A DNA stretch of 64,000 nt, taken from the NCBI GenBank assembly GCA_947034885.2, contig OX344752.2, forward strand, positions 13,268,001-13,332,000. Direction: 5' to 3'. Shown in pieces: positions 493-37,307 of this stretch (its first letter is position 1; each line of letters opens with the position of its first letter). The notes under the pieces are model-generated. The model did no database searches. It saw only the letters and a program-made list of their open reading frames with translations, and had not been told where the DNA came from. The position numbers and the translations under genes are program-made. The DNA comes from Thuidium tamariscinum (lineage: Eukaryota; Streptophyta; Bryopsida; Hypnales; Thuidiaceae).

Positions 493-1290
493 TTATACAA
501 TGGGGTACCAATCAAAATGGCGTTTTTGAATTTGCACTAAACAAAATTTTAGCATGTTCTAAGATTTTGAATATTTCTTTTAGTAGGTCTTTTGAACTTG
601 AAATTTAGCACACATATTATCAACATAAAGATGATCTCATGACTAAATTTTATTGTAAATAGATAATTTTTTAGCCCTTGGGAAGGTGTCAAAGTTGGCC
701 ATAGTGAAAATTTTCTTAAAGCTATATATGATGGGAGATTTTATATATCTTTTTTTGAATAAGTCTTTTGAATTTGAAATTTGGAACACATGTTATCAAT
801 ATAGAGATGATATTTCTTTTTAAATTTATAGGAAAAACCAATTTTGTAACCCTTGGGAGGGTGTCAAAGTTGGCAATTGTGAAAATTTTCTGAAAACTAT
901 GCATGTTTGTAGATTTTGAATATCTTTTTTTTGTATTAGTCTATTGACCTTGAAATTTTCCACACATATTAAAAACATAGAGTTTATTTCACGATAAAAA
1001 TTTAATGGCAGAAATTCAATAATTGGGAAGGTGTCAAAGTTGAAAGTAGTGAGATTTTTTTCACAACTATATATATTGGTAGATTTTGAATATCCTGTTT
1101 TGTGTGAGTCTTTTGGCTTTGAAATTTAGCACAATTGTTATAAACTTAGAGATAATCTTGTAAAAAAACATCTATGAAAATACCAATTTTTGAGCTCTTA
1201 AAAGGCTATTAAAGTTGGTACTTGGTAGCCTTGAAATTTCGTTCATTGCAAATTCAAAAATGTCATTTTGATTGGTACCCCACTGTACAT
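493..1290. mobile_element. Inverted-repeat element filled with ~173-bp tandem repeats
   Basis: The left end contains TGGGGTACCAATCAAAATG (from about 501) and the right end contains its near-perfect reverse complement (about 1261-1284). The inverted match extends to about 40 bp, running into a TTTTTGAATTTGCA block. Between the ends lie about four copies of a unit starting AGATTTT at 562, 735, 911 and 1081, spacing 170-176 bp. Each unit carries a conserved block like GGGAAGGTGTCAAAGTTGG. No coding frame is maintained across the units. Probably a non-autonomous DNA transposon with an internal minisatellite; the superfamily is not clear and no convincing target duplication was found. Confidence 0.7.
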
Positions 1291-2498
1291 ATCCTGACCA
1301 CCAGTTTTTAGAAATTAATATTTATTTATTTTCTCAAATTCTCTTTCATTAGGGGTAGTTACATCTTCTTTACTACGCACAACTTCTCTAAAGAATTACC
1401 TACTTTTGAAGGAAAGCAAAAGCCAATGGACTACAAATTTAGGTGAAGAAAGCATAACACCCTTTTTTGAGTGAAAGAATGTAGAAAATGAAATGTTAGA
1501 GAATCAATGAAGCATGTTGATTGTGCAGGATTCTTGGAGCCAATCACTGTCACAAGCCAAGCTTGTGTCATTGCAAGTGTTTGCAAAGCCGAAGAAAAAG
1601 GAGTCTACAATAGTAAAACAACAGTGAAAACATTCACTTGTGAACAATTCTTCATGGATTGCTCAATATACACTTCCGGAGCAAAAGAACAAACATTGTG
1701 AAGAGTTCATAGAAGAAGAATATTTTACCAACGAGGGCCAATCTTAAGCCAATCCAAAACTACCACCTCATCATTCTTTAAAGAAGATTTGGGAAGTGAA
1801 GAAGGTGTGACTATCCTTCTTGTGCTTCTTGATTGTCTTTGTCAAACTGGCTTTGTCTGTGCATTCAATACTGGGTTCATTTGCATTTAGTAAACAAGTT
1901 CATTTTCCTTTGTGCCTTATGTTCACATGATGGTGATCAATAAATAATTTAAACATTAATATTAATAAGTTAATGATTTAAACAATTTATCAAAACACTA
2001 AATTAGTTAAAAATAGTTAAATGAAAAAGTTTTTTTAAACTATTTGAAATCGATTTAATTGCCTATTTGCTAAAATTTAGTATTAGTGGATAGTTCATAA
2101 TTCTCTATTTTATTGTTGAATTTTGAAAGGAAGTTTCTACATACCAAAGAACGTCACACTTGAATACTACATTATATTTCTATGCTTAGGCAAAATAAGG
2201 TAGTCTACTCTTCAAACAACCATTTAAGATCTTATTTCTTTTTAAAGAAGTTGAACTCCTTCAAACCATTTCTAGAAAATCATGGGAAGAATAAAATTGA
2301 ATTTTACATTTAACCCAAGTTTCATTTTTTGGAAATCAATTGAGGAAATCAATTTTAAAAATTAGTAGCACATCATTTTAATTTTGGTAGAATCCACCAT
2401 CTTTCTTTCAAAAATTCAAAAACAAAGTCATTTGAATGTGTAGGTGTTTGCATAGCAACAACATAGAATTGAAAACAAACTTTACAATACTAATGATA
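1291..2498. other. Intergenic, AT-rich
   Basis: No gene can be supported. A 64-codon open frame at 1507-1701 (+) contains several Cys but has no recognisable domain, no splice context and no homologue that I know; I do not call it a gene. Confidence 0.5.
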
Positions 2499-2502
2499 TT
2501 AA

Positions 2503-3135
2503 CCCCTAAATGTCCAAGGGCTTTTTTGAGTTTCTAAAGATTTGCTCTAAATTGAACAAAAAGACAACATTTTGATATGCTTTATCAACTTTTTTTTGAA
2601 ATACAACAATATAAAACCAAACTAGACATGTTAGAAATCACTTAGGAAAAGAAAACATAACAATATCACTTATGGATTGAAAGATAATGATGTTTGATTA
2701 CAAGGGTGTTAAAATTGGGAAAATCATTTCAAGTCTTTCAATCTTTTTTTCACATGCCAAATCTAAAAAGTTGGTCACCAAAAAAAACATGAAGTTGAAG
2801 GGAATATCATGCATAATCCTAATCAATTTGGTGTTTTTCAAAATCTATTCTACAACTTTTTTAAATGAATTTCTAATGTGGATTTTTCTCCAAAATCCAA
2901 TGTATTTGATGCTCATTTTCAAGAGCCCTCAACACTACAGAAAACCTATGTTGCAATGGACACCCTTGCACAAAATTTTGAATAGAAAAATCATAACCAA
3001 TTATTTTCAAAATCAGATTTTTGATGCAAAAACTAGACTTCAAGGAAAAATTTCTAAAAATATAAACTTGATTAGGTTTTATTTAACTTTAAAGTTTTGC
3101 AAAGACCAAATTTTGGTGCCTTGGGCATTTAGAAG
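2503..3135. mobile_element. piggyBac-type MITE, copy 1 (TTAA-flanked)
   Basis: The element is flanked on both sides by TTAA (2499-2502 and 3136-3139). The left tip is CCCCTAAATGTCCAAGG and the right tip, read inward, is CTTCTAAATGCCCAAGG, so the inverted ends match over about 17 bp with few changes. TTAA target sites and CCC-initial tips are hallmarks of the piggyBac superfamily. Its subterminal sequence (a stretch containing TTTGCTCTAAATTGAACAAA) recurs in opposite orientation at about 20695-20730, so it is the inverted relative of the 20115-20759 element. The 150-codon open frame at 2687-3139 lies entirely inside it and is not a gene. Confidence 0.8.
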
Positions 3136-3139
3136 TTAA

Positions 3140-3417
3140 AGTATGTGGCCTTCAAGTAGTCACCCAAGTAGTCACCATCTTGCACAAGGAGGAGAATAGT
3201 GAATGTGTCCTTGACTAAAGAAATAACCAAATATAACCAAATATCAATATTAAAAAATATATATAGTAAGATATGGAATCCTCTTTAAATATTATTTTGA
3301 AAAGCTAAAAGAAGTATGAAATTTAGAAAGGAAAAGGAATAGGTCCCAAAAAACATAGAAAAATTCACTTTCCATTTTTGAAATGGAAAAAATAGGAATT
3401 TAAAGAAAAAATACAGA

Positions 3418-3463
<46 letters not shown>

Positions 3464-4596
3464 AAATAAAATAAGTAGGAACTAGGAAGGAAAAACAAAC
3501 AAAACAATTTTTTTGTTTTTTTTCCTAGAAAAAAGGGATGAGAAACTAAGGTAAACATGCACATTTTTTAATTTTTTAATTTTTTAATTGAATATTGAGC
3601 ATTGAAAAAATTCAAGAGCACATGAATTAGAAATTGGGCCTAAGAATCTAGCCTAAGGGTTGTACATAAAACCTTCATCACCTAAGGGGAAGAAAAGTGT
3701 CCTCACATAGTCTCATTGTTTGATTCAAAGAGTTGTAAGTTTTGCATCCAATGCCCAAATTCAATAAAACTTGTTGGAGAAGTTGCACATACTAGTCTAG
3801 TTTGTGGTAAAAAATTTAGATCAATCCAAGATGTACAGATGCTTTGGAAAGCCATTTGAAGTTCATAGGTTCAATTTGTATTTACCAAACTACAACTTAT
3901 GGCTACAACTTCAGAGACTTGTATCTTCTTCATCCAATGTTTGTTTTCAATAAGCTTCGTTGAGTTATGTTCTTGTCTAGTAGTCTAGTTATTGTGTTCA
4001 AATTTTCTTAGCAATCCAAGTTGTTTTGAATGTTTAGAAGCAATTCAAAGTTCAAAAAGTTAACTAGAAATTTTTGGATGATAGTCAACTTTAGGAATTT
4101 GTTTCTTCTTTATATAATGTCCGTTTATAATAAATAAGTAAATTTTAAATTGCACATTTTAGTCTAGTTTGTATGGCTAAAATTTCATATCAATCCAAGA
4201 AGTTATAAGTGATTGAGAAGCATTTTAGTAGGAAGTTTAATCATAGATGTGTTTTTTGCATCCTTTTAAAAAAAATTGGACATTTAAAAGTCATTTTGCA
4301 AACACAATGAATCAATTGAGGGACATTTTTATCACCAATGTGTTTGTATGTTGATTTCAAATCACTTTTTAGTGTAAAGTTTTTTCATTTGAATAGGCTT
4401 AGAAATCAAATTTCACCTCCAAATGTGTTTTTAGAAAATTTTCAACATCCTTTTCCAATACTAAGAAATTAACAACATACATGCTACAAAATTGTGTAGT
4501 TGAGATTTTTGTACTTTATCTTAGTGACATTTAGACTTATAAGGCTTGAAAAGTAAGGATGCCTTTAGACAAGTTTTGGTCTTAGGCAATGAAGAG
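3140..4596. other. Intergenic, AT-rich, with a TA microsatellite
   Basis: Holds a pure (TA)n run of about 20 units at 3420-3461. The remainder is AT-rich with no supportable gene. A diffuse self-similarity built around phrases like 'tctagtttgt' recurs between 3780 and 4180, suggesting an old degraded repeat. Confidence 0.55.
3420..3461. repeat. (TA)n microsatellite
   Basis: Uninterrupted alternating TA for about 41 bases. Confidence 0.95.
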
Positions 4597-5898
4597 TTAA
4601 CCCCAAAATGACCCTGGAATATCCTTAACTTTTGTCATGTGTCAAACGTGCAATTTTTGGGCAATTTTCATAATTATTTGGGGAATTGGAGAGAAAATGT
4701 GACCGTACTAATCGGTAGATCAATATGCCTGGATCACCTGAAAATTTTTGTGGCTCTAAATTCTTGGGTGCCTTATAGTGGATTTACACAGTTCTCCCTG
4801 GCCGTAAGTGAAAAAAGAGGGACTTTCAGAACTTTGAGAGTCTTCATTGGATACTACAAGACCAATTTGTATCCGATCAAGGTTTTTTCTTTTTCAATAC
4901 AATGCTTGTTAGATGTATAACACTTCGATCCAACAAAAGTAGCCACAGTGACTACATGTGTCGATGACAAAAGTGTCAAAGTTGGTGGTCTTCAACAAGG
5001 CCACCACTGAGTAAAAAGGTTCATTTTTCCTGAGAAAAAAATAGCTATTGACAATGAATGATCTGAACGGTGGGAATAACATAGGCAGATCCACCAATGC
5101 TCAAAAAAAATTTGGCCGAAATCGGATGGTCTATTTGTCCACAAAGTCATTCTTTCGAGACATGTGTAGGACACCCGGAGAACAGAAGGGTGGTAGACGG
5201 CAAGAACCATGCATGGCAGGTGAAAAAACTGTGAACAACATGATCTGGCATTCCTAGCAAATGAAGTGGTGTAGAAATACAGAAACACAAAGGTGGAATG
5301 ACTAACCGCTCCTCCATTCAGTTTCAAGACATGACTAGAGGACCTACACGGTACTTGCGTCCATTGCCAAAATACAGCAATTACCACACACTCACCATCG
5401 ATCTAGTTACACGACTCTAACAATAGAACTCTTTTACACAATTACAACAACCCAATAAAGTAATTTTCAAAAATTGTCGCAACATTCTAAAGTCTGTAAA
5501 CGGTGGTATTGCCAAAACTACCGAGTATGCAGAACATCGTTGCCTACTCTATATCTAGCCTAGATGTATCCTACAATGCATCCAAACATAACTGAAAACA
5601 TAAAATTGCTACCTTGTGAGGAGTACCCTACACTGTAAACCTCATTTAAAACTACAAAAAAAAATAGGGATACAGGAGCGGTTGGAATTGAAAGCTTCAA
5701 TGAATTGCCGAATCCGGGAAGGCACCTGCAACATATTTCACCTCAAGCTACATCAAAGATTAGCCAAGCGAGGTATTCCACTGTCCGGACGCTGAAATCA
5801 CCATCCAGATGACTTGCATGGTCATCTCCTAAGCAAAATGGCACAAGTACATTTGCCATACCTCCTTTGACCTCCTGCATGGAACTTGCAAGACAATT

Positions 5899-7360
5899 TC
5901 ACTTGAATACTTTGGCTATAAACTTAGGATTTGTGTGCACCTTGAAGTAATACAATCCTTCACACATATAAACTCTTCCGCAGCCAGGACAATATCTAAT
6001 TTGTTTCCACCCGCAAATGACGCATTTAGCACGGAGCTTGGAATGCCTCGCTGGAAAATGGAGTTCATTGTCACTCCGATTCAATGAAGCACTGGTGCGC
6101 CCAAGCCGTGCTTGGGGATCGCACCACCAATTTGCAATGTTGTAGTGAAACTCAACTCGACTCATTACCCTCTTCTGCCCCAAACTAATTGCGTGAGATT
6201 TGTTAAGGATGTAGGCGTTGCCCAAACTGATATCCAAAACAAAAAGGAACAAACAATGCTACCACTTGTGGGATCTCAATTGGTCCGTGTACTCCATTCT
6301 ACATTGATCAACTAAATCAATTCCCCTCATCATTTCTTGGTACTCTAAGAGAATTGGAGACGTGTGGAACTCCTTTTGGCCATCATTTTTGGTCCACCTC
6401 GAACATAACGTCCCCTGTACCATCGGGTCCACCGAGGTACTAAGGAGATGCACAAGTATATGATCAAACCAGACTACTGCACACATGCGTCTCGACCGAT
6501 GCATCTCTACTATGAGACCACCTCACTCCCCATCTACTCTAGAATATGCGGCCAAATTGGGAGGAAGCCCAGTTCTATTGGACAAACTGTGCCGGTTGCT
6601 AAAAATCCATCTTTCAACAAGTTGTCAAAGAAGTGCAGTGATGTAAAAAAGTGATCAGTGACCACCACACACCTTTATCCTTTCAAACCAGACACCAAGC
6701 GCACAACCACTTTCCTACCTAAATCTTTCTTAGTTTTTTTTACCCTTCTGTCCAGTGTAGACCTCAAGATCGTACACATAACGTGATTTACTGTTAGCGC
6801 AACACCAAATTTTAATCCCGTACTTCACGGGTTTTACAAGCATATACTGCTTTATAGCGCACCTTCTTCCATGATGGAGAATCATAATCTCGTCAACACA
6901 AATATGCCTCTCACAATTATACAACTCTTTGCAAGTATACACAAAATATTCCAACAGCCACCGTACCTTTCCTATTTTATCATAAGCCACATCTGCTTTG
7001 TCTACAATTAAACTGACATTATCAACTAAATAAATGTTGCGACAAATGCCTCGAACCTAGCTCTTCGCATGACAGCCTTCATAAGAAGACAACCAAAAAA
7101 TTGCCTACGGTCCCAATACAAGCAAATATTGGATAGCTTTTTGAATCCCATGTAGATATACATTCCTAACCAATATTGAAGCTCTGCAGGGGATACATCG
7201 GTCCAGTTCACACCACCATTCATTTTCCTAGGATTCCTATACCTAACCTACCTTGCATAGCGATTAGTTTGGTCACAGATACAAATAAGAGTCTCGGTGG
7301 GCCAATAGGGCTCAAAAATTGGTACGTAGGCATTGGGCGACCATGGAGCCATGTATAAAG
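5899..7360 (-). pseudogene. piggyBac transposase (DDE_Tnp_1_7) core, broken
   Basis: Conserved blocks appear in the correct order on the minus strand. First comes the N-terminal core near 7200-7310 (CDQTNRYA, then WTDVSPAELQYWLGMYIYMG). Next is the first catalytic Asp in CVDEIMILHHGRR (codon about 6893), followed by KPVKYGIKIW and YVYDLEVYTGQ. The second Asp is in VTDHFFTS (about 6654) and the third in GIDLVDQC (about 6317). The C-terminal Cys-rich tail (CVICGW, CPGCGRVYMC, YYFKVHT) ends at 5899. These are the expected piggyBac landmarks, and all three acidic residues survive. The gene is dead as read: there are frame changes between 7360 and 6500, a TAG inside the NRYA region and a TAG where SHKW continues into HCLFLF (near 6255). 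It lies inside paired TTAA-flanked ends, so it is the element's own transposase. Confidence 0.9.
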
Positions 7361-8598
7361 TTGACTTTGGCTGCTCCAGTAACGACGTGTTCAAATTCTT
7401 GAACAACCTCCCTCAATAACATGTTGTTGGACCCAACACCGGGACTCAATCCCAAAGTAGGGCAGGACATCCAAACCTAAGTCACAATTGCGGTTTGACT
7501 TGGAAAGATGTCGTCTATACGAATGTGCACATACTCTCCGCCCTGACCACAAGAGTCATACCAGTTTTGGCTATCTCAAGGGCATAGTGAATTGTCTTTG
7601 CTCCCAACAACTGTCACAAGGCGCTTGCCTTCTCAAATGGCTCATCGGCGCTCCGCACTATAACAGCTTAAGCCAGGCATCTCTTTGCAATCCATGAGTA
7701 AGTCAGTAGCCTCTTCCATGTCTATGCCATCAACCCATTCACCATGTACTCCTATAACTAAATCGCCTAAAAGTAATCTCTCCATAGTATGGCGCTCATC
7801 TTGTATGCGGAAAAGCGAAGCCTTGGAAATGCTGGGTCTCAAGTAGTAAGGTGAATGTGGCATGTTTACAAGAATAGCCAGCAGAAACCAATCTGTTGGA
7901 GTCTTGTCCTCTTGCAAAATTGTGACTTCATTGTCAATGTTTCTTCCTTTCTACTTCCCATTACCTTTCCTCCCTTGACGAGCAGGCACAATCTCTAGAT
8001 TTTGAATGGCACTAGCGTCTCCTTCTATATTTTTATCCCTTCCCCTGCTACGCCCTCATTTGGTTCCCGCTCTACCATGCTCTTCGTTTCTACAAAGGAG
8101 GGTCAGAGCTTCTGTCCCTTGTACTACGCTCGCTTATTTGAATCTTGCTACTACCGCATTCTTCACCTTTCGTATTGTCCCCTCTTCTCTTGTCGAAGAG
8201 ATAGTCTTCTGCACGTTTTCTACAGAATTCCCTTCTGCGGCGTTGATGGTGCTTGCATTCAACGGTCCTTCCAGTGCTATTGAGGGCCCCTCAATGTGTA
8301 AAGCCTCCACTGGTCTTGGGGGCCAAGGGATAGGGAAGAGCTCCAGCCTTCTTCAATTTTTGGAAGTACATATCACAGGTGATACTACACTCCCTAGACT
8401 TGTTGATGTTGCACCCATAAGGGATTGAAGTTGGCAATTTAGCCCCTCTGACGGTACATTGTGGTTGGAAGTAGGTTGTGTCTTGAGTGGTTCTTGTTCT
8501 CGGCGCTTCACACGCCTCTTGCAAAATGGTGACCGCATGAGGAGCCGGTTCTGCACTGCAAGGTGCGCAACTTCCTTCACTACCAACTGGGTGTTCAT
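7361..8598 (-). pseudogene. Probable N-terminal part of the piggyBac-encoded protein, degraded
   Basis: Minus-strand open segments at 8598-8291 and 7917-7642 sit directly upstream of the transposase core, followed by short segments in shifting frames (for example NNMLLREVVQEFEHV near 7400). The 7917-7642 piece includes LLLGDLVIGVHGEWVDGIDM. No known domain is recognisable, as is usual for the variable, acidic N-terminal third of piggyBac transposases. The frame entering at 8598 matches the frame leaving at 9333 once the intervening MITE is ignored, showing that this stretch was one continuous frame. Whether it belongs to the transposase or to a second protein is not settled. Confidence 0.5.
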
Positions 8599-9332
8599 GG
8601 GCAATTGCAAGAAACACTTGTCCTATTTTTCGTCACACCTCATGTACTGATTTGTTTTTTGGTCATAACTTCTATGTTTTGGCTCCAAATGACTTAAGAT
8701 TTATAGGGAAGATATTCATAGGTACCATACAAATTCTCTAATTTTTTTATAATTTTCAAAAATATTTTGATTTCAAAATAGTACTAGTGATTGAATGTCA
8801 CACTTCGCAGTTTAGGGGTTTTTAGTCACTAAGGAGTACCTTTTTTTAATGATTTTGAGATGAAATTTGGATGAGATGGTCTCCTAATAGACTTATAGCT
8901 CTCCACATGAGGGATTTTGAGAAAAGTTATTTTTATGACGTGTGGAAGTCCACAAAGTGAGCTTCCTTCTGGTTGCATTTTGAAACATATAAAGTATTAT
9001 TTTAGTGATTTTTTTGATGAATGACCATCTCCATAAAGTTGTTGCAAATGTCCACTTTTTATTTTTTGTATTTACTTATTTTTACTAATTTTCCTGAATT
9101 AAAACATGAAGGTATGTATTTTCTTGAAATTTGGCGCTTTTTAAGTTCTCCTACTTAGAGAATTTTTCTATCATTTTCCTTTGGTGAAAACCTTCATTTT
9201 AGGGGTGTATACATTATTCGTATTTTTCAAATTTTTTTCAAATTTTTTTTCTAATTTTAAAGTACTCCAAAAAAAATCACGAGTACTGTAGTAAAACACA
9301 ACAAATAGGACAAGTGTTTCTTGCAATCACCC
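8599..9332. mobile_element. 4-bp-TSD MITE family, copy 1 (inside piggyBac)
   Basis: Ends are GGGCAATTGCAAGAAACAC on the left and GTGTTTCTTGCAATCACCC on the right, inverted repeats of at least 19 bp that extend into ACTTGTCCTATTT. It is flanked by TCAT at 8595-8598 and 9333-9336, a 4-bp target duplication. The interior is AT-rich and non-coding. Two further complete copies lie at 41155-41883 and 43032-43747, and one end at about 58537. Because it splits a frame inside the piggyBac element, it inserted after that element arrived. Confidence 0.9.
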
Positions 9333-9336
9333 TCAT

Positions 9337-9995
9337 GTTCTTCGTCTAGCCAGAGGGCTCTAACGATCTTGAAAAGTTCGTCTAGAAAATCTCGCCACTT
9401 GCACCATCCTAGAATGTGCACAACGTTGCTATAAAACAGAATCCTCCAATGCGTTGACTTGAAACACCTATGGCAACACAAGTTTGGAGCTTCGAGGGAG
9501 CGACAATAAATGTTGATCGTTGAAGCAACTAAGGATTCTAAGTCTCTCAGTAGTAGTAGCACCGCTCTCACTGAGTAAACTATGAATGCCTTGTGCTTGG
9601 TGCAATTGAGATTCAAGGAATTCACAAATCTTGTCACTACATAAATGTTCCATTGCAATTGGCAATAGGCAATCGGCAAGAAAGCAGAGGTACATAGAGC
9701 AGTGGGAATACAAGCATTACAAGTAGTGGGATCAAAGAAAAACCCAGACAATGTTGCGGATAACCCCACAAGGAACCTTGATTACCCGCCTACAATTGCA
9801 CTCCTACATGAAATTGTGACTTCTCTACCTTGGACGCCGCATCCTGTCAATTTCCACCATTGCCACTATCGCCGGAATTCTCCCTCCAAAATTCCACTCT
9901 CCAATTGGAATTGTCCTCGCAGGAATCCGAAGCCTCTCCACAGCACCCACAACCAAACGAGTAGCCTAAACCCTAAGCCCTATCATTGTAAGTGA
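9337..9995 (-). pseudogene. Degraded open frames of unknown product in the piggyBac element
   Basis: Two overlapping minus-strand frames are open here. One (from Met 9769) ends with KWRDFLDELFKIVRALWLDEEHE and joins in frame to the segment below 8598 when the MITE is skipped. The other includes MEHLCSDKICEFLESQLHQ (Met codon at about 9655). The sequence just upstream has the Pro/Arg-rich look and 'agggtttagg' motif common at plant gene starts. I recognise no family. It may be the 5' exon(s) of the transposase, a second transposon protein, or a captured host exon. Confidence 0.4.
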
Positions 9996-10385
9996 GTACT
10001 AAATTCTTTGTAAACTCCTTCCGTGCAGGGAAGAAAAGAGTACCCCTGGAATTAGGTTTGCACATGACGGGAAGCACTTTGTCTCAGAGGACAGACTTGC
10101 ATCGTGCAACGGTCTTCCTCCGGGTGGGAGCCTCGTCACCCGGACTTTTGATCCGCACTAGCATTGTGCGTTCTGTGCCGGCCAATGGAGGAGGTGTCTT
10201 TGAGAATGCCTTTACAATTTGAAGCCATGTCACATGATAAATCTAAACACATCCCCTTGATCAGCATTGGAAGCTCTATAATTATGTAATTTACTGCTTG
10301 ACCTAATTCGATACTAATTTTTCGTTATTCAGCTTTCGAAAAACGTCGTGGACACATTCTATCCGCCAGGTCGTTTTGGGGTTAA

Positions 10386-10969
10386 GTAGGGCCACATGAA
10401 AAAATTGGAGCCAAACTAAAGGCATGATTGAAGACACATCCACCTGACCTTCCATCCAACCCTAGGTCTAATATAAAACCAACCTTAGTAATGCACTCAT
10501 CATGGCTCTTAAATCAACCACTGAAGAAATATGAACCATCCATTGAAGAAGTATGAACCAAACCTTATTATGTTATGACATAATCATTAGTCCATTCCCC
10601 AATCATCACATATCCATTTCAGGGACTCCTACAGGGATTCCTACAGAACGGTTTGAAGAAGAGGGTCAGTTAAAGAGCGCACTACTACAATGCCCATTTC
10701 CACAGGCCACTGTACATCTGCTCTCCTCTACACTGCAGCAGTCTGTGGTCAAATCAGGTGCATAAATATCCGTGGATCCTAAACAATCAAATAGATTACC
10801 TTTGTGCTGACTATACCATACAGTAGTTGGTGATTTACACACTTTTGAAGCCATACGCCTCCGAGGGGGAGAGCTATAAATATACAGACGCAGCAACAAG
10901 TTCGGCCACATAAATAGAAACTTGCTTTAGTATGTTAACCCAGCCAGGTCAATACTAGAAGGGAACTTG
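10386..10969 (-). other. 3' flank / probable 3' UTR of the RING gene
   Basis: About 580 bases between the right TTAA of the piggyBac element and the stop codon of the RING gene. No independent gene recognised; the open frames at 10553-10765 (+) and 10666-10911 (-) have no domain. Likely transcribed as 3' UTR in part. Confidence 0.5.
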
Positions 10970-20110: not shown

Positions 20111-20114
20111 TTAA

Positions 20115-20759
20115 CCCCTAAATGCTCGAAGCACCAAAATTTGGTGCTTGAAAAAATTTAAAGTTAAATAAAACCTTACTAAGTTGCCATTTTCCAAATT
20201 GGATTTTTGGCATTGAAACTAGACTTCATAAAGAACTTTCTAAATATATAAATTACTAAAAATGAATGATGTTGATTTTTCTATTCAAGATGTTGTACAA
20301 GAGTATCCATTGCAACCTCGACTTTCCGTAGTCTTGAGGGCTCTTGGAAATGAGCCTCAAATACACTAGATCTTGGAGAAAAAATCACATTCAAAATTCA
20401 TTGAAAAAAATTGTAGAGTAGATTTTCAAAGGTCATAAATTGATTGGAGTTATGCATGTTAGGCCCTTTGACCTCATTTTTTTTGGCCACCAAGTTTTTA
20501 AATTTGACTTGCAAAAAGAAGATAAAAAGACTTCACATCACTTTTGTAGTTTTAATACTCTCATAGTCAAATATTATAATCTTTCACTCCATAAGTGATA
20601 TTGTTGAGTTTTCTATTTCTATGTAATCTCTAAATTGTCTAGTTTAAATTTGTTCAGTTACAATTCAAAAAAATTGATACAACTTATCAAAATGTTGGTA
20701 TTTTGTTCAATTTAGAGCAAATTTCAAGAAGCTCAAAACAAGCCTAGGGCATTTAGGGG
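20115..20759. mobile_element. piggyBac-type MITE, copy 2 (TTAA-flanked)
   Basis: TTAA flanks at 20111-20114 and 20760-20763. Tips are CCCCTAAATGCTCGAAG on the left and, read inward, CCCCTAAATGCCCTAGG on the right. The right subterminal part (TTGTTCAATTTAGAGCAAAT) is the reverse complement of the left part of the 2503-3135 element, so the two are inverted relatives of similar size (645 and 633 bp). No coding capacity. Confidence 0.85.
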
Positions 20760-20763
20760 TTAA

Positions 20764-34989: not shown

Positions 34990-37013
34990 CCTCTTCAAAG
35001 CACTTGTTGCATAGACCCTTGAAGCTAAAACCTAAACCCTTGATGTCTTGCAATCTAATATTTTTGTATAGATCAATGCCACCATTACTACAAACTAGTT
35101 GCCATCCAGCCGCCTTTCATAACTTTGCCTAGCTATTCTTCATTTGCCATATTCTAACAACAAGGGATTCAACAAGAAACAATATCATCAACCAAAAAAA
35201 AAAAAATTAGAGCCTAGTCAAAATTTGTTGCAAGACACACACAAAATGTTGAGCAAGGAGTATTTTGTAAGATGCTAGGCTAAGTTTCACCGTATGTCTT
35301 GTCTATAGGGTAGGCAAGAGAGAGGACCAAATACACCAAAGATCGGGCTATGGCTAGTTTCTAGTGAAACACTAGGGACGCTCTTATCATAAACTTTCAT
35401 AAGTTAAACTAACCCATTTCTGCCAACTTCCTATTTCCACCATCCTATTTTTGGCCCCATCTCCACGAACTTCTTATTCCCACCATCCTATTTTTGGTCC
35501 TATCTCCACCATAGAGCTCACTTAAATCCATTCATTTTTTGACAATTTCAATGCATTAATTACAACTTGTATAATGTGTCAATCCTTGATTGCTAGATAC
35601 TCAAGTGCTAATAGGTACATGAGATGTCAAATATGCAGAACATTAAATCATACAATTGAAGGTGGGTCCAATAGGATAAATCTCATTTTACTAGGGGTTG
35701 ACAAGGGTTTGGGGTTTATATTTGTGTTGGGTTTTTTTTGGTATGTTTAGGGTCTCCCTAGCTAATTTGGGGTCTTTGATTCTAAATCAAAATTCAGAAT
35801 TTGAAAAAAATAAAAAATGCAAAAAATAAAAAATTCAACGTTTTCTCTGGGGTAAATCCAACCTGCGGGGCCCACCTTTGATGGTATCATTTAACGCTGC
35901 GCATCAAGTGTAGGTTGTTTTGGGAACATTTATGACACTCCTAGATGAACAGTTTTTGTAATTCCCAAGCTGACCACTTCCGAAATGCATAAAAATTACA
36001 ATTTTAATCAGAAAATTATAATTTCACTTGGGTTTGATGTGTGAAACATATGCACACCTCTGCCAAATATGTACCTGTTTTGGAGTCAGCCCTGAGATCT
36101 GCAAATCCGGGTGCTAATAGAGACTGTTGATTAGAAAATGCTGATTTTAGCCTGATTCACTTCATGCCAATTTCATCATTCAAGTTGCAGTGCACGTCCA
36201 ATCCACCAGCCCACAATCCCACCATCAATCAATGTCCAAGATGAATAAGTTAAACATGAATTGAGCCCAAATGAATTGCCCATTAGTTCAGTGCAGTACT
36301 TGCAGACCTAAATTAAGTTGTTAGGTACTTAGGTGCGTTCCAAAGAAAATTTAAAAACTCCCATTTGGGTGAAAGCACATGGAGATCTGACTCCCACAAC
36401 CCAGAATCCTGAAAAGGGCTGGAACTGAAAGATCAATGGATTCCTGGGTTAACTTATGTTACAAGTTACCCTGGCCATGATGAGCTCATTTCCGTCTGAG
36501 GTTGGGATGATTTTGTCAGGCCGGCCGGATTCCAAACTTTCATGAAAGTTCTTTCGGTTCAAGCAGTTTCCTGGAAGGGCCTCTTGCGGGCGAAAAGTTA
36601 CAGATGGAGATTACTGATCAAAAGAAAAAAGTACACTCACGTATATTACAGTAAGTTATGGTAGAGGACCCATAACCGTTAAAATAAGCACATCTGGACA
36701 TGATCTGGGCAAGTGCAAGGCAAAGCAAATATTTTCAGAGGTGCATTGACAGAAATGATGAAGATTGTAAAAAATTTGGTAATTTTATTTTTTGAATTGA
36801 AATTTCTATAAATTTTGAAAGGCAAAAGTTGGGCTTGACTTATGACTAACATCTAGAGTCATCTAATTTCCATCATTCAAGAATACTTTCCCACTAATTA
36901 CTTCCTACATTTATACTCACTTATGTGTCATTAACTTATTGGTCCAAGCCTTGAAAAAGTACAAAGACACACATCCCCCTATGAAGATACGCTGTTTGTT
37001 TGGATGTTTGTTT
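34990..37013. other. Intergenic sequence with old repeat remains
   Basis: A short tandem (CCACCATCCTATTTTTGG block twice, period about 50) lies at 35410-35510. The 35840-36680 stretch is moderately GC-rich. Phrases around 36370-36640 resemble, in reverse, phrases around 52110-52460, hinting at an undefined dispersed repeat. No coding frame. Confidence 0.45.
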
Positions 37014-37307
37014 GTTACGTTGAGATCTCCCGGACCGTGAGTCCCCCAGGTGTGTGTTTGGTACCGTCAGAAAGCCCTCGGCGAGGAGGGGTGCACGGGC
37101 TTTGATTCATGGTGTTCCAACCTACGGCATGAAAGTTATTGAATTTTGAAGTTTATATATGTTACGTTGAGATCTCCCGGACCGTGAGTCCCCCGGGTGC
37201 GTGTTTGGTACCGTCGGAAAGCCCTCCGTGAGGAGGGGTGCATGGGCTTTGATTCATGGTGTTCCAAGCTACGACGTGAAAGTTATTGAATTTTGAAGTT
37301 TCTATAC
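37014..37307. repeat. 147-bp direct tandem duplication
   Basis: Two near-identical head-to-tail units start GTTACGTTGAGATCTCCCGG at 37014 and 37161. Each contains GGTACCGTC, GAGGAGGGGTGCA and GGGCTTTGATTCATGG. A third, much diverged copy is at about 44346-44490. They are followed in both places by a related stretch (GTGGCAACGGTACAGG at about 37342; GTGGCAATGGCACAAGG at about 44520). Likely part of a larger unidentified mobile element. Confidence 0.85.

Follow-up and report, generated by a model that had tools for sequence, protein, structure and literature searches.

The piggyBac transposon is a leading gene-delivery tool, and its relatives have been described mainly from animals, fungi and protists. 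The T. ni piggyBac element has ends that begin with CCC, a transposase with a Cys-rich tail and one gene, and piggyBat is a short element with a single open reading frame (ORF). Two-protein DNA transposons are known from plants in the Harbinger, MuDR and En/Spm groups. The accessible text of PMC10140906 gives the length of T. ni piggyBac as 2,472 bp, and that of PMC12732532 describes beetle piggyBac elements that measure 2,074–3,465 bp and contain one ORF each, of ~500–725 aa. Here we describe an element at positions 4601–10381 of a 64,000-nt stretch of contig OX344752.2 from the moss Thuidium tamariscinum; the whole stretch is referred to as the window. The moss elements resemble T. ni piggyBac (PDB code: 6x67) in the TTAA target, the PF13843-type domain and the aligned catalytic Asp residues, and resemble the beetle elements in TTAA, short inverted ends and transposase. 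In contrast to the T. ni element, the two moss elements that were measured span 5,088 bp (a young family described below) and 5,781 bp (the window element, nested insertion included); their transposase has a long N-terminus, and a second gene, ORF1, lies upstream of it. Size and the single ORF also set the beetle elements apart. Described piggyBac elements usually have a single transposase ORF, a feature that does not define them. Overall, the window very likely contains a whole, decayed piggyBac in a moss nuclear chromosome, originally with ORF1 and a DDD transposase.

A first-pass annotation had read the region as a whole piggyBac in a plant chromosome, with paired TTAA sites and 13-bp inverted ends ~5.8 kb apart enclosing a transposase pseudogene that retains three Asp blocks and a Cys-rich tail. 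Closer analysis bears out each of these points (Table 1). The short inverted ends start with CCC, agree at 12 of 13 positions, and are flanked by the TTAA target-site duplication. When a TTAA+CCCC pair with an inverted-repeat match of ≥12/13 and a spacing of 0.5–10 kb was sought, none occurred in 300 first-order random sequences and two in the window (the 4601–10381 element and 20115–20759). The nearest copy in the genome, a sister element (L044) at 29.04 Mb of the same contig (C4), shares four alignable blocks with the window element at 85.6–90.2% identity. The outer limits of this alignment lie no more than a few bases from both TTAA sites, which the sister shares. Because the sister stops there amid different flanking DNA, both boundaries are confirmed; genomic copies ending at 4601 and 10381 were what the earlier annotation had set as its test. 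A genome search with the left end returned only the element itself and the sister (2/2 candidates), and the right end returned these two and one distant copy at 64% (3/3 candidates). Across 5,030 sites, the window and sister copies differ by a Kimura two-parameter (K2P) distance of 0.127; their alignment contains 17 gap runs. A 28-nt inverted repeat (96%, spacer-less; L044 869–924) was observed just beyond the left TTAA of the sister.

PF13843 was found in four of the six minus-strand pieces between 7412 and 5902, as well as in genome loci; Pfam gave no match for the pieces at 5902–6258 (Cys-rich tail) and 7251–7412. By reading, VDEIM, TDHFF and GIDLVDQ are all legible in the relic, spread over more than one frame, and a C-terminal Cys-rich domain can be recognized by eye both here and in the young family, with no match to Pfam models. 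The persistence of the Asp blocks might suggest a transposase domesticated as a host gene, for which an intact frame without transposon ends would be expected. However, the domain is dispersed over frames, both transposon ends are present, an insertion is nested within ORF1, and the sister copy likewise stops ahead of the Cys-rich tail. Domestication of the window copy is therefore considered extremely improbable.

The catalytic frame of the sister is open for 792 aa, with a stop preceding the Cys-rich tail, and an interruption is present in its ORF1 frame too; as read from the sequence, complete proteins are encoded by neither copy. The ORF1 relic of the window was located with the sister ORF1; the nested insertion that sits inside it carries an apparent TCATG duplication. 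We regard 4601–10381 as almost certainly a dead copy of a moss piggyBac of this ORF1-bearing type.

The genome comprises 363.2 Mb in 19 contigs, with the window on a contig of 32.5 Mb. Contig C19 is the plastid genome, in which psaA and psaB are intact; partial psaA/psaB copies, most with stops, lie in C1, C2, C3 and C6. Plastid PsaB scored 1694–1698 bits against PDB entries 8htu, 6l35 and 7ksq, 1663 bits against 9lut, and ≤1630 bits against the other 56 of the best 60 PDB sequences. We take 8htu to be photosystem I from the moss Physcomitrium patens. The same origin is given for 6L35 and 7KSQ in the accessible texts of PMC7884438 and PMC11629750. The host is thus a moss, its PsaB being closest to that of Physcomitrium photosystem I. 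A search for the light-harvesting complex (LHC) family PF00504 turned up 62 candidates, of which 49 match; these are distributed over eight of the ten large contigs, with ten rows on C4, which is a plant chromosome. One LHC locus matched PDB best at the long chain of LHCI-2 in 9vfj (433.9 bits), followed by 7xqp and 8htu (348 bits) and many others (≤347 bits), a ranking that does not separate moss from other land plants. The focus of piggyBac publications on animals, fungi and protists, evident in the accessible text of PMC12732532, could raise a suspicion of contamination from an insect, a fungus or another organism. However, the scored transposases occur on all ten large contigs, plastid pieces are found in C1, C2, C3 and C6, and the LHC matches include C4 itself. 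Contamination is already refuted unless the entire chromosome set is foreign, and we give it hardly any credence.

A PF13843 profile search of the genome yielded 658 candidates, of which 116 were scored, all above cut-off and on ten large contigs; the linkage counts given below use these listed transposases. Counted by eye, 74 of the 116 are without an internal stop. Clustering of 35 extracted domains (30 loci from this search and five from a separate one) yields 18 groups at 90% identity, eight at 70% and, at 55%, five that we treat as lineages; the lowest pairwise identity is 36%. Four Asp columns are invariant in 12/12 aligned moss transposases, and the catalytic residues align to 6x67, in which the triad and the fourth Asp are presumably D268, D346, D447 and D450. 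At E ≤0.01, the only PDB profile matches were piggyBat (PDB code: 9c0f, which we take to be from the bat Myotis lucifugus; 6.4e-51), the closest solved relative by profile, and T. ni piggyBac (5.8e-39). Short ends beginning with CCC also occur beyond the window, on the 3' side within 1.5 kb in 16 of 27 loci and on the 5' side in nine of the ten ORF1-matching loci described below. Their termini and target site, the transposase domain with its catalytic residues, and the tail together identify the moss elements as piggyBac. In a tree of 18 moss and two animal proteins, the moss sequences all fall on one side (98/98), and the animal branches are very long. No relatives were found in the viral contigs and prokaryote genomes that were searched. 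It is noted that at loci such as L054, L055, L056 and L061 a small conserved AHV..ER.D....KFL.LRF.DG.IEE.C.GAV stretch can be seen by eye in the ORF2 N-terminus ahead of the transposase domain; this region might, at a guess, adopt a chromo- or Tudor-like fold.

One family in this genome stands out as very young. Scoring of the complete set of 36 candidates for its 5' end gave 11 that match over all 504 bases from TTAA inward, ten of them identical and one scoring slightly lower. On the 3' side, all 11 copies give way to unrelated DNA after ending in AGGG followed by TTAA. Only two differences were found in 43,824 positions compared, and the two extended copies from which the element length was taken differ at one position. 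Two differences in 43,824 bases at unrelated TTAA sites imply very recent transposition. At substitution rates between 1e-9 and 1e-8 per site and year, the spread of the family would be no older than some tens of thousands of years. The inference in the first-pass annotation that this lineage hosted active piggyBac elements is supported, and copies with open frames do exist elsewhere in the genome, where the annotation had suggested that an intact copy may be found. The young element carries ORF1 at nt 634–1488 (285 codons), then a transposase frame at nt 1013–4081 (1,023 codons) that matches PF13843 at 5.9e-79.

A genome search with 126 residues of the young-family ORF1 produced 244 candidates; 150 of these were scored, yielding 149 match rows with identities down to 27%. 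In a few cases, adjacent rows belong to a single copy. A listed transposase lies 1.2–3.9 kb downstream on the same strand in 58 of the 149 rows, and still in 47 of 138 when the 11 young copies are left out. No row is on the wrong side of a transposase, and one is near a transposase on the opposite strand. Random placement of ORF1 linked 0.115 rows on average and two at most in 200 trials, the size of C11, which concerns one row, being guessed. In ten fetched loci picked for having an ORF1 match, a TTAACC-type end is located upstream in nine, and ORF1 starts ~560–1,140 nt inside. A profile built from 11 ORF1s detected ORF1 in the sister of the window element at 3e-12. The profile was also applied to six further loci, picked because ORF1 had gone undetected there earlier, and five of them (L064 and L066–L069; not L065) proved to have ORF1 upstream. 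ORF1 is thus seen upstream of the transposase in each of the five lineages into which the 35 extracted domains fall.

Codon-position counts over 15 pairs among six clade-A families found 627, 432 and 1,115 differences at positions 1, 2 and 3 of 1,881 codons in the ORF1 domain, and this third-position excess implies constraint at the protein level. The distances of ORF1 and transposase are correlated across 13 families (r = 0.935, Mantel p 0.0001), as would be expected if the two had been co-travelling since before the deep moss lineages split. Comparison of ORF1 with PDB and Pfam gave nothing convincing, with best E values of 0.33 and, in one member of 13, 0.018, respectively. We are highly confident that the moss piggyBac type carries a conserved ORF1.

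Several observations weigh against a two-gene moss piggyBac type of which the window element is a dead copy. The ORF1 relic of the window on its own reaches only E 0.012 against the profile of the other families, and the distant ORF1s are just 21–33% identical to the query. For 91 of the 149 ORF1 rows, none of the listed transposases is located within 8 kb, although transposase pieces do follow downstream in both of the two rows that were checked. At L018, the 4.6 kb upstream of the transposase yielded no ORF1. The third-position excess is weak in the ORF1 tail (888, 817 and 1,119 differences in 1,650 codons). Among six near transposase pairs with a computable ratio of nonsynonymous to synonymous change (dN/dS), two are under little constraint, at 0.80 and 0.96, the other four ranging from 0 to 0.59. 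A TTAACCC-type 3' end is present within 1.5 kb in 16 of 27 loci. Finally, a search for an empty site found nothing in the genome that spans the joined flanks of the window copy, these flanks being other high-copy repeats. Both flanks (4351–4600 and about 10486–10635) lie within high-copy dispersed repeats, and several matches of the left-flank repeat end at the TTAA junction of the element.

It should be mentioned that ORF1 could be the first exon or exons of the transposase gene, adding an extra N-terminal domain to the transposase. Its location on the same strand at a fixed 1.2–3.9 kb upstream, its close co-variation with the transposase, the overlap of the young-family ORF1 with the long ORF2 frame and the little constraint on the ORF1 tail are all compatible with splicing. 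In five aligned clade-A families, the Val codon that closes the domain has a GT in common that could serve as a splice donor. However, L058 is without this GT, and by reading ORF1 continues in six clade-A families to its own stop with a GAR.L..L motif near the end, which would be needless if this part were spliced out and favours a separate protein. We consider an exon unlikely and a separate ORF1 protein probable.

If ORF1 is a separate protein, the element would first have had two minus-strand genes: ORF1, encoding a small conserved protein and placed first, followed by ORF2 for the DDD transposase with its Cys-rich tail. From what is known of the piggyBac family, we infer that the transposase would bind both element ends, excise the element at TTAA via hairpin intermediates and insert it at a new TTAA. 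Second proteins are encoded beside the transposase in some other DNA transposons of plants, and by analogy ORF1 would most likely act as a transposition helper, such as a DNA-binding or transposase-partner protein. Harbinger, MuDR and En/Spm would share with the moss elements an element-encoded second protein, whereas their transposases belong to other superfamilies. From sequence, the chances that ORF1 assists transposition, as opposed to regulating or targeting it, appear evenly balanced.

The remark in the first-pass annotation that piggyBac is rarely reported from land plants needs qualification, since some reviews list PiggyBac among plant superfamilies in passing. In the accessible parts of the respective sources, the identification of piggyBac in plants is mentioned in passing (PMC10140906), PiggyBac is named as a plant class II superfamily (PMC10794571) and among the superfamilies of angiosperm miniature inverted-repeat transposable elements (MITEs) (PMC10004981), and 1,230 fragments totalling 122 kb of the Ceratopteris genome are labelled PiggyBac (PMC6890710). 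The word is absent from the accessible main text of a survey of 207 plant genomes (PMC12550479). As a label, piggyBac-like sequence in plants is therefore not new. What the open-access literature was not found to contain is a report of a moss piggyBac transposase, a two-gene piggyBac or a conserved second gene, or diversified complete moss elements with recent mobility. Tentatively, and with somewhat less than even confidence, we propose that mosses harbour a piggyBac branch that is old and diversified, continues to move and is aided by a second element-encoded protein of undescribed fold, which would be the first two-component piggyBac and the first natively active one in a land plant. A second gene conserved in the five examined lineages would revise the one-protein picture of piggyBac. 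With dozens of stop-free transposase domains and a near-identical family at 11 sites, this genome allows native activity of piggyBac to be tested directly in a land plant, and transposases adapted to plants could serve as useful tools.

Table 1. Coordinates of the features recognized in the window, with the basis for each.
Feature	Position	Strand	Basis
Left TTAA target-site duplication	4597–4600		Sequence; sister-copy alignment stops there
Left terminal inverted repeat CCCCAAAATGACC	4601–4613	+	Matches right end at 12/13
Transposase relic, C-terminal part, Cys-rich tail CVICG...CPGCGRVYMC	5902–6258	-	By reading; no Pfam match
Transposase relic, third Asp block GIDLVDQ	6262–6522	-	PF13843, E 0.0012
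Transposase relic, second Asp block TDHFFTS, other frame	6537–6674	-	PF13843, E 0.0044
Transposase relic, first Asp block VDEIM	6733–7056	-	PF13843, E 1.7e-19
Transposase relic, N-terminal part of DDE domain, other frame	7029–7247	-	PF13843, E 2.8e-8
ORF1 relic, C-terminal part, separated from its domain by the nested insertion	8093–8599	-	tblastn of sister ORF1 tail, E 3.6e-69, 72%
Nested insertion, ~734 bp, 35-nt inverted ends (89%)	8599–9332		Not in sister; TCATG each side by reading
ORF1 relic, conserved domain, two frames (9653–9459, 9469–9353)	9353–9653	-	tblastn of sister ORF1, E 2.9e-40; profile of ORF1s from other families, E 0.012
Right terminal inverted repeat CCCCAAAACGACC	10369–10381	-	Pairs with left end
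Right TTAA target-site duplication	10382–10385		Sequence; sister copies stop there
piggyBac-type MITE, 653 bp, TTAA to TTAA, ends TTAA followed by CCCCTAAATGC	20111–20763		Sequence and genome copies

Of 5,138 candidate copies of the 653-bp repeat in the genome, 40 were scored, and these include at least 39 copies besides the one in the window, nearly all full-length and at 82–88% identity. The repeat is a member of a very large piggyBac-type MITE family. In a search for its cognate element, the right end was best matched by the L031 family (19/24), and four families tied for the left end at 21/26. Termini of the TTAACCCC type without a clear partner are present in the window at 2499, 19000, 21440, 29066, 43379 and 55652, and are possibly decayed piggyBac-type elements. 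A high-copy repeat of ~313 bp at about 2101–2418 of locus L045 has, by reading, inverted ends like GGAAATTTCGTTAAAATGGCG; its 39 other scored copies are 96–99% identical, probably representing a recent MITE burst of another kind. Pfam gave no match for eight other ORFs of the window, and Rfam and tRNA scans of the window found none. The window also contains a 176-bp tandem unit in 3.4 copies (562–1158) and a 147-bp unit in two tandem copies with 93% matches (37013–37306), the latter G+C-rich by reading amid A+T-rich DNA.

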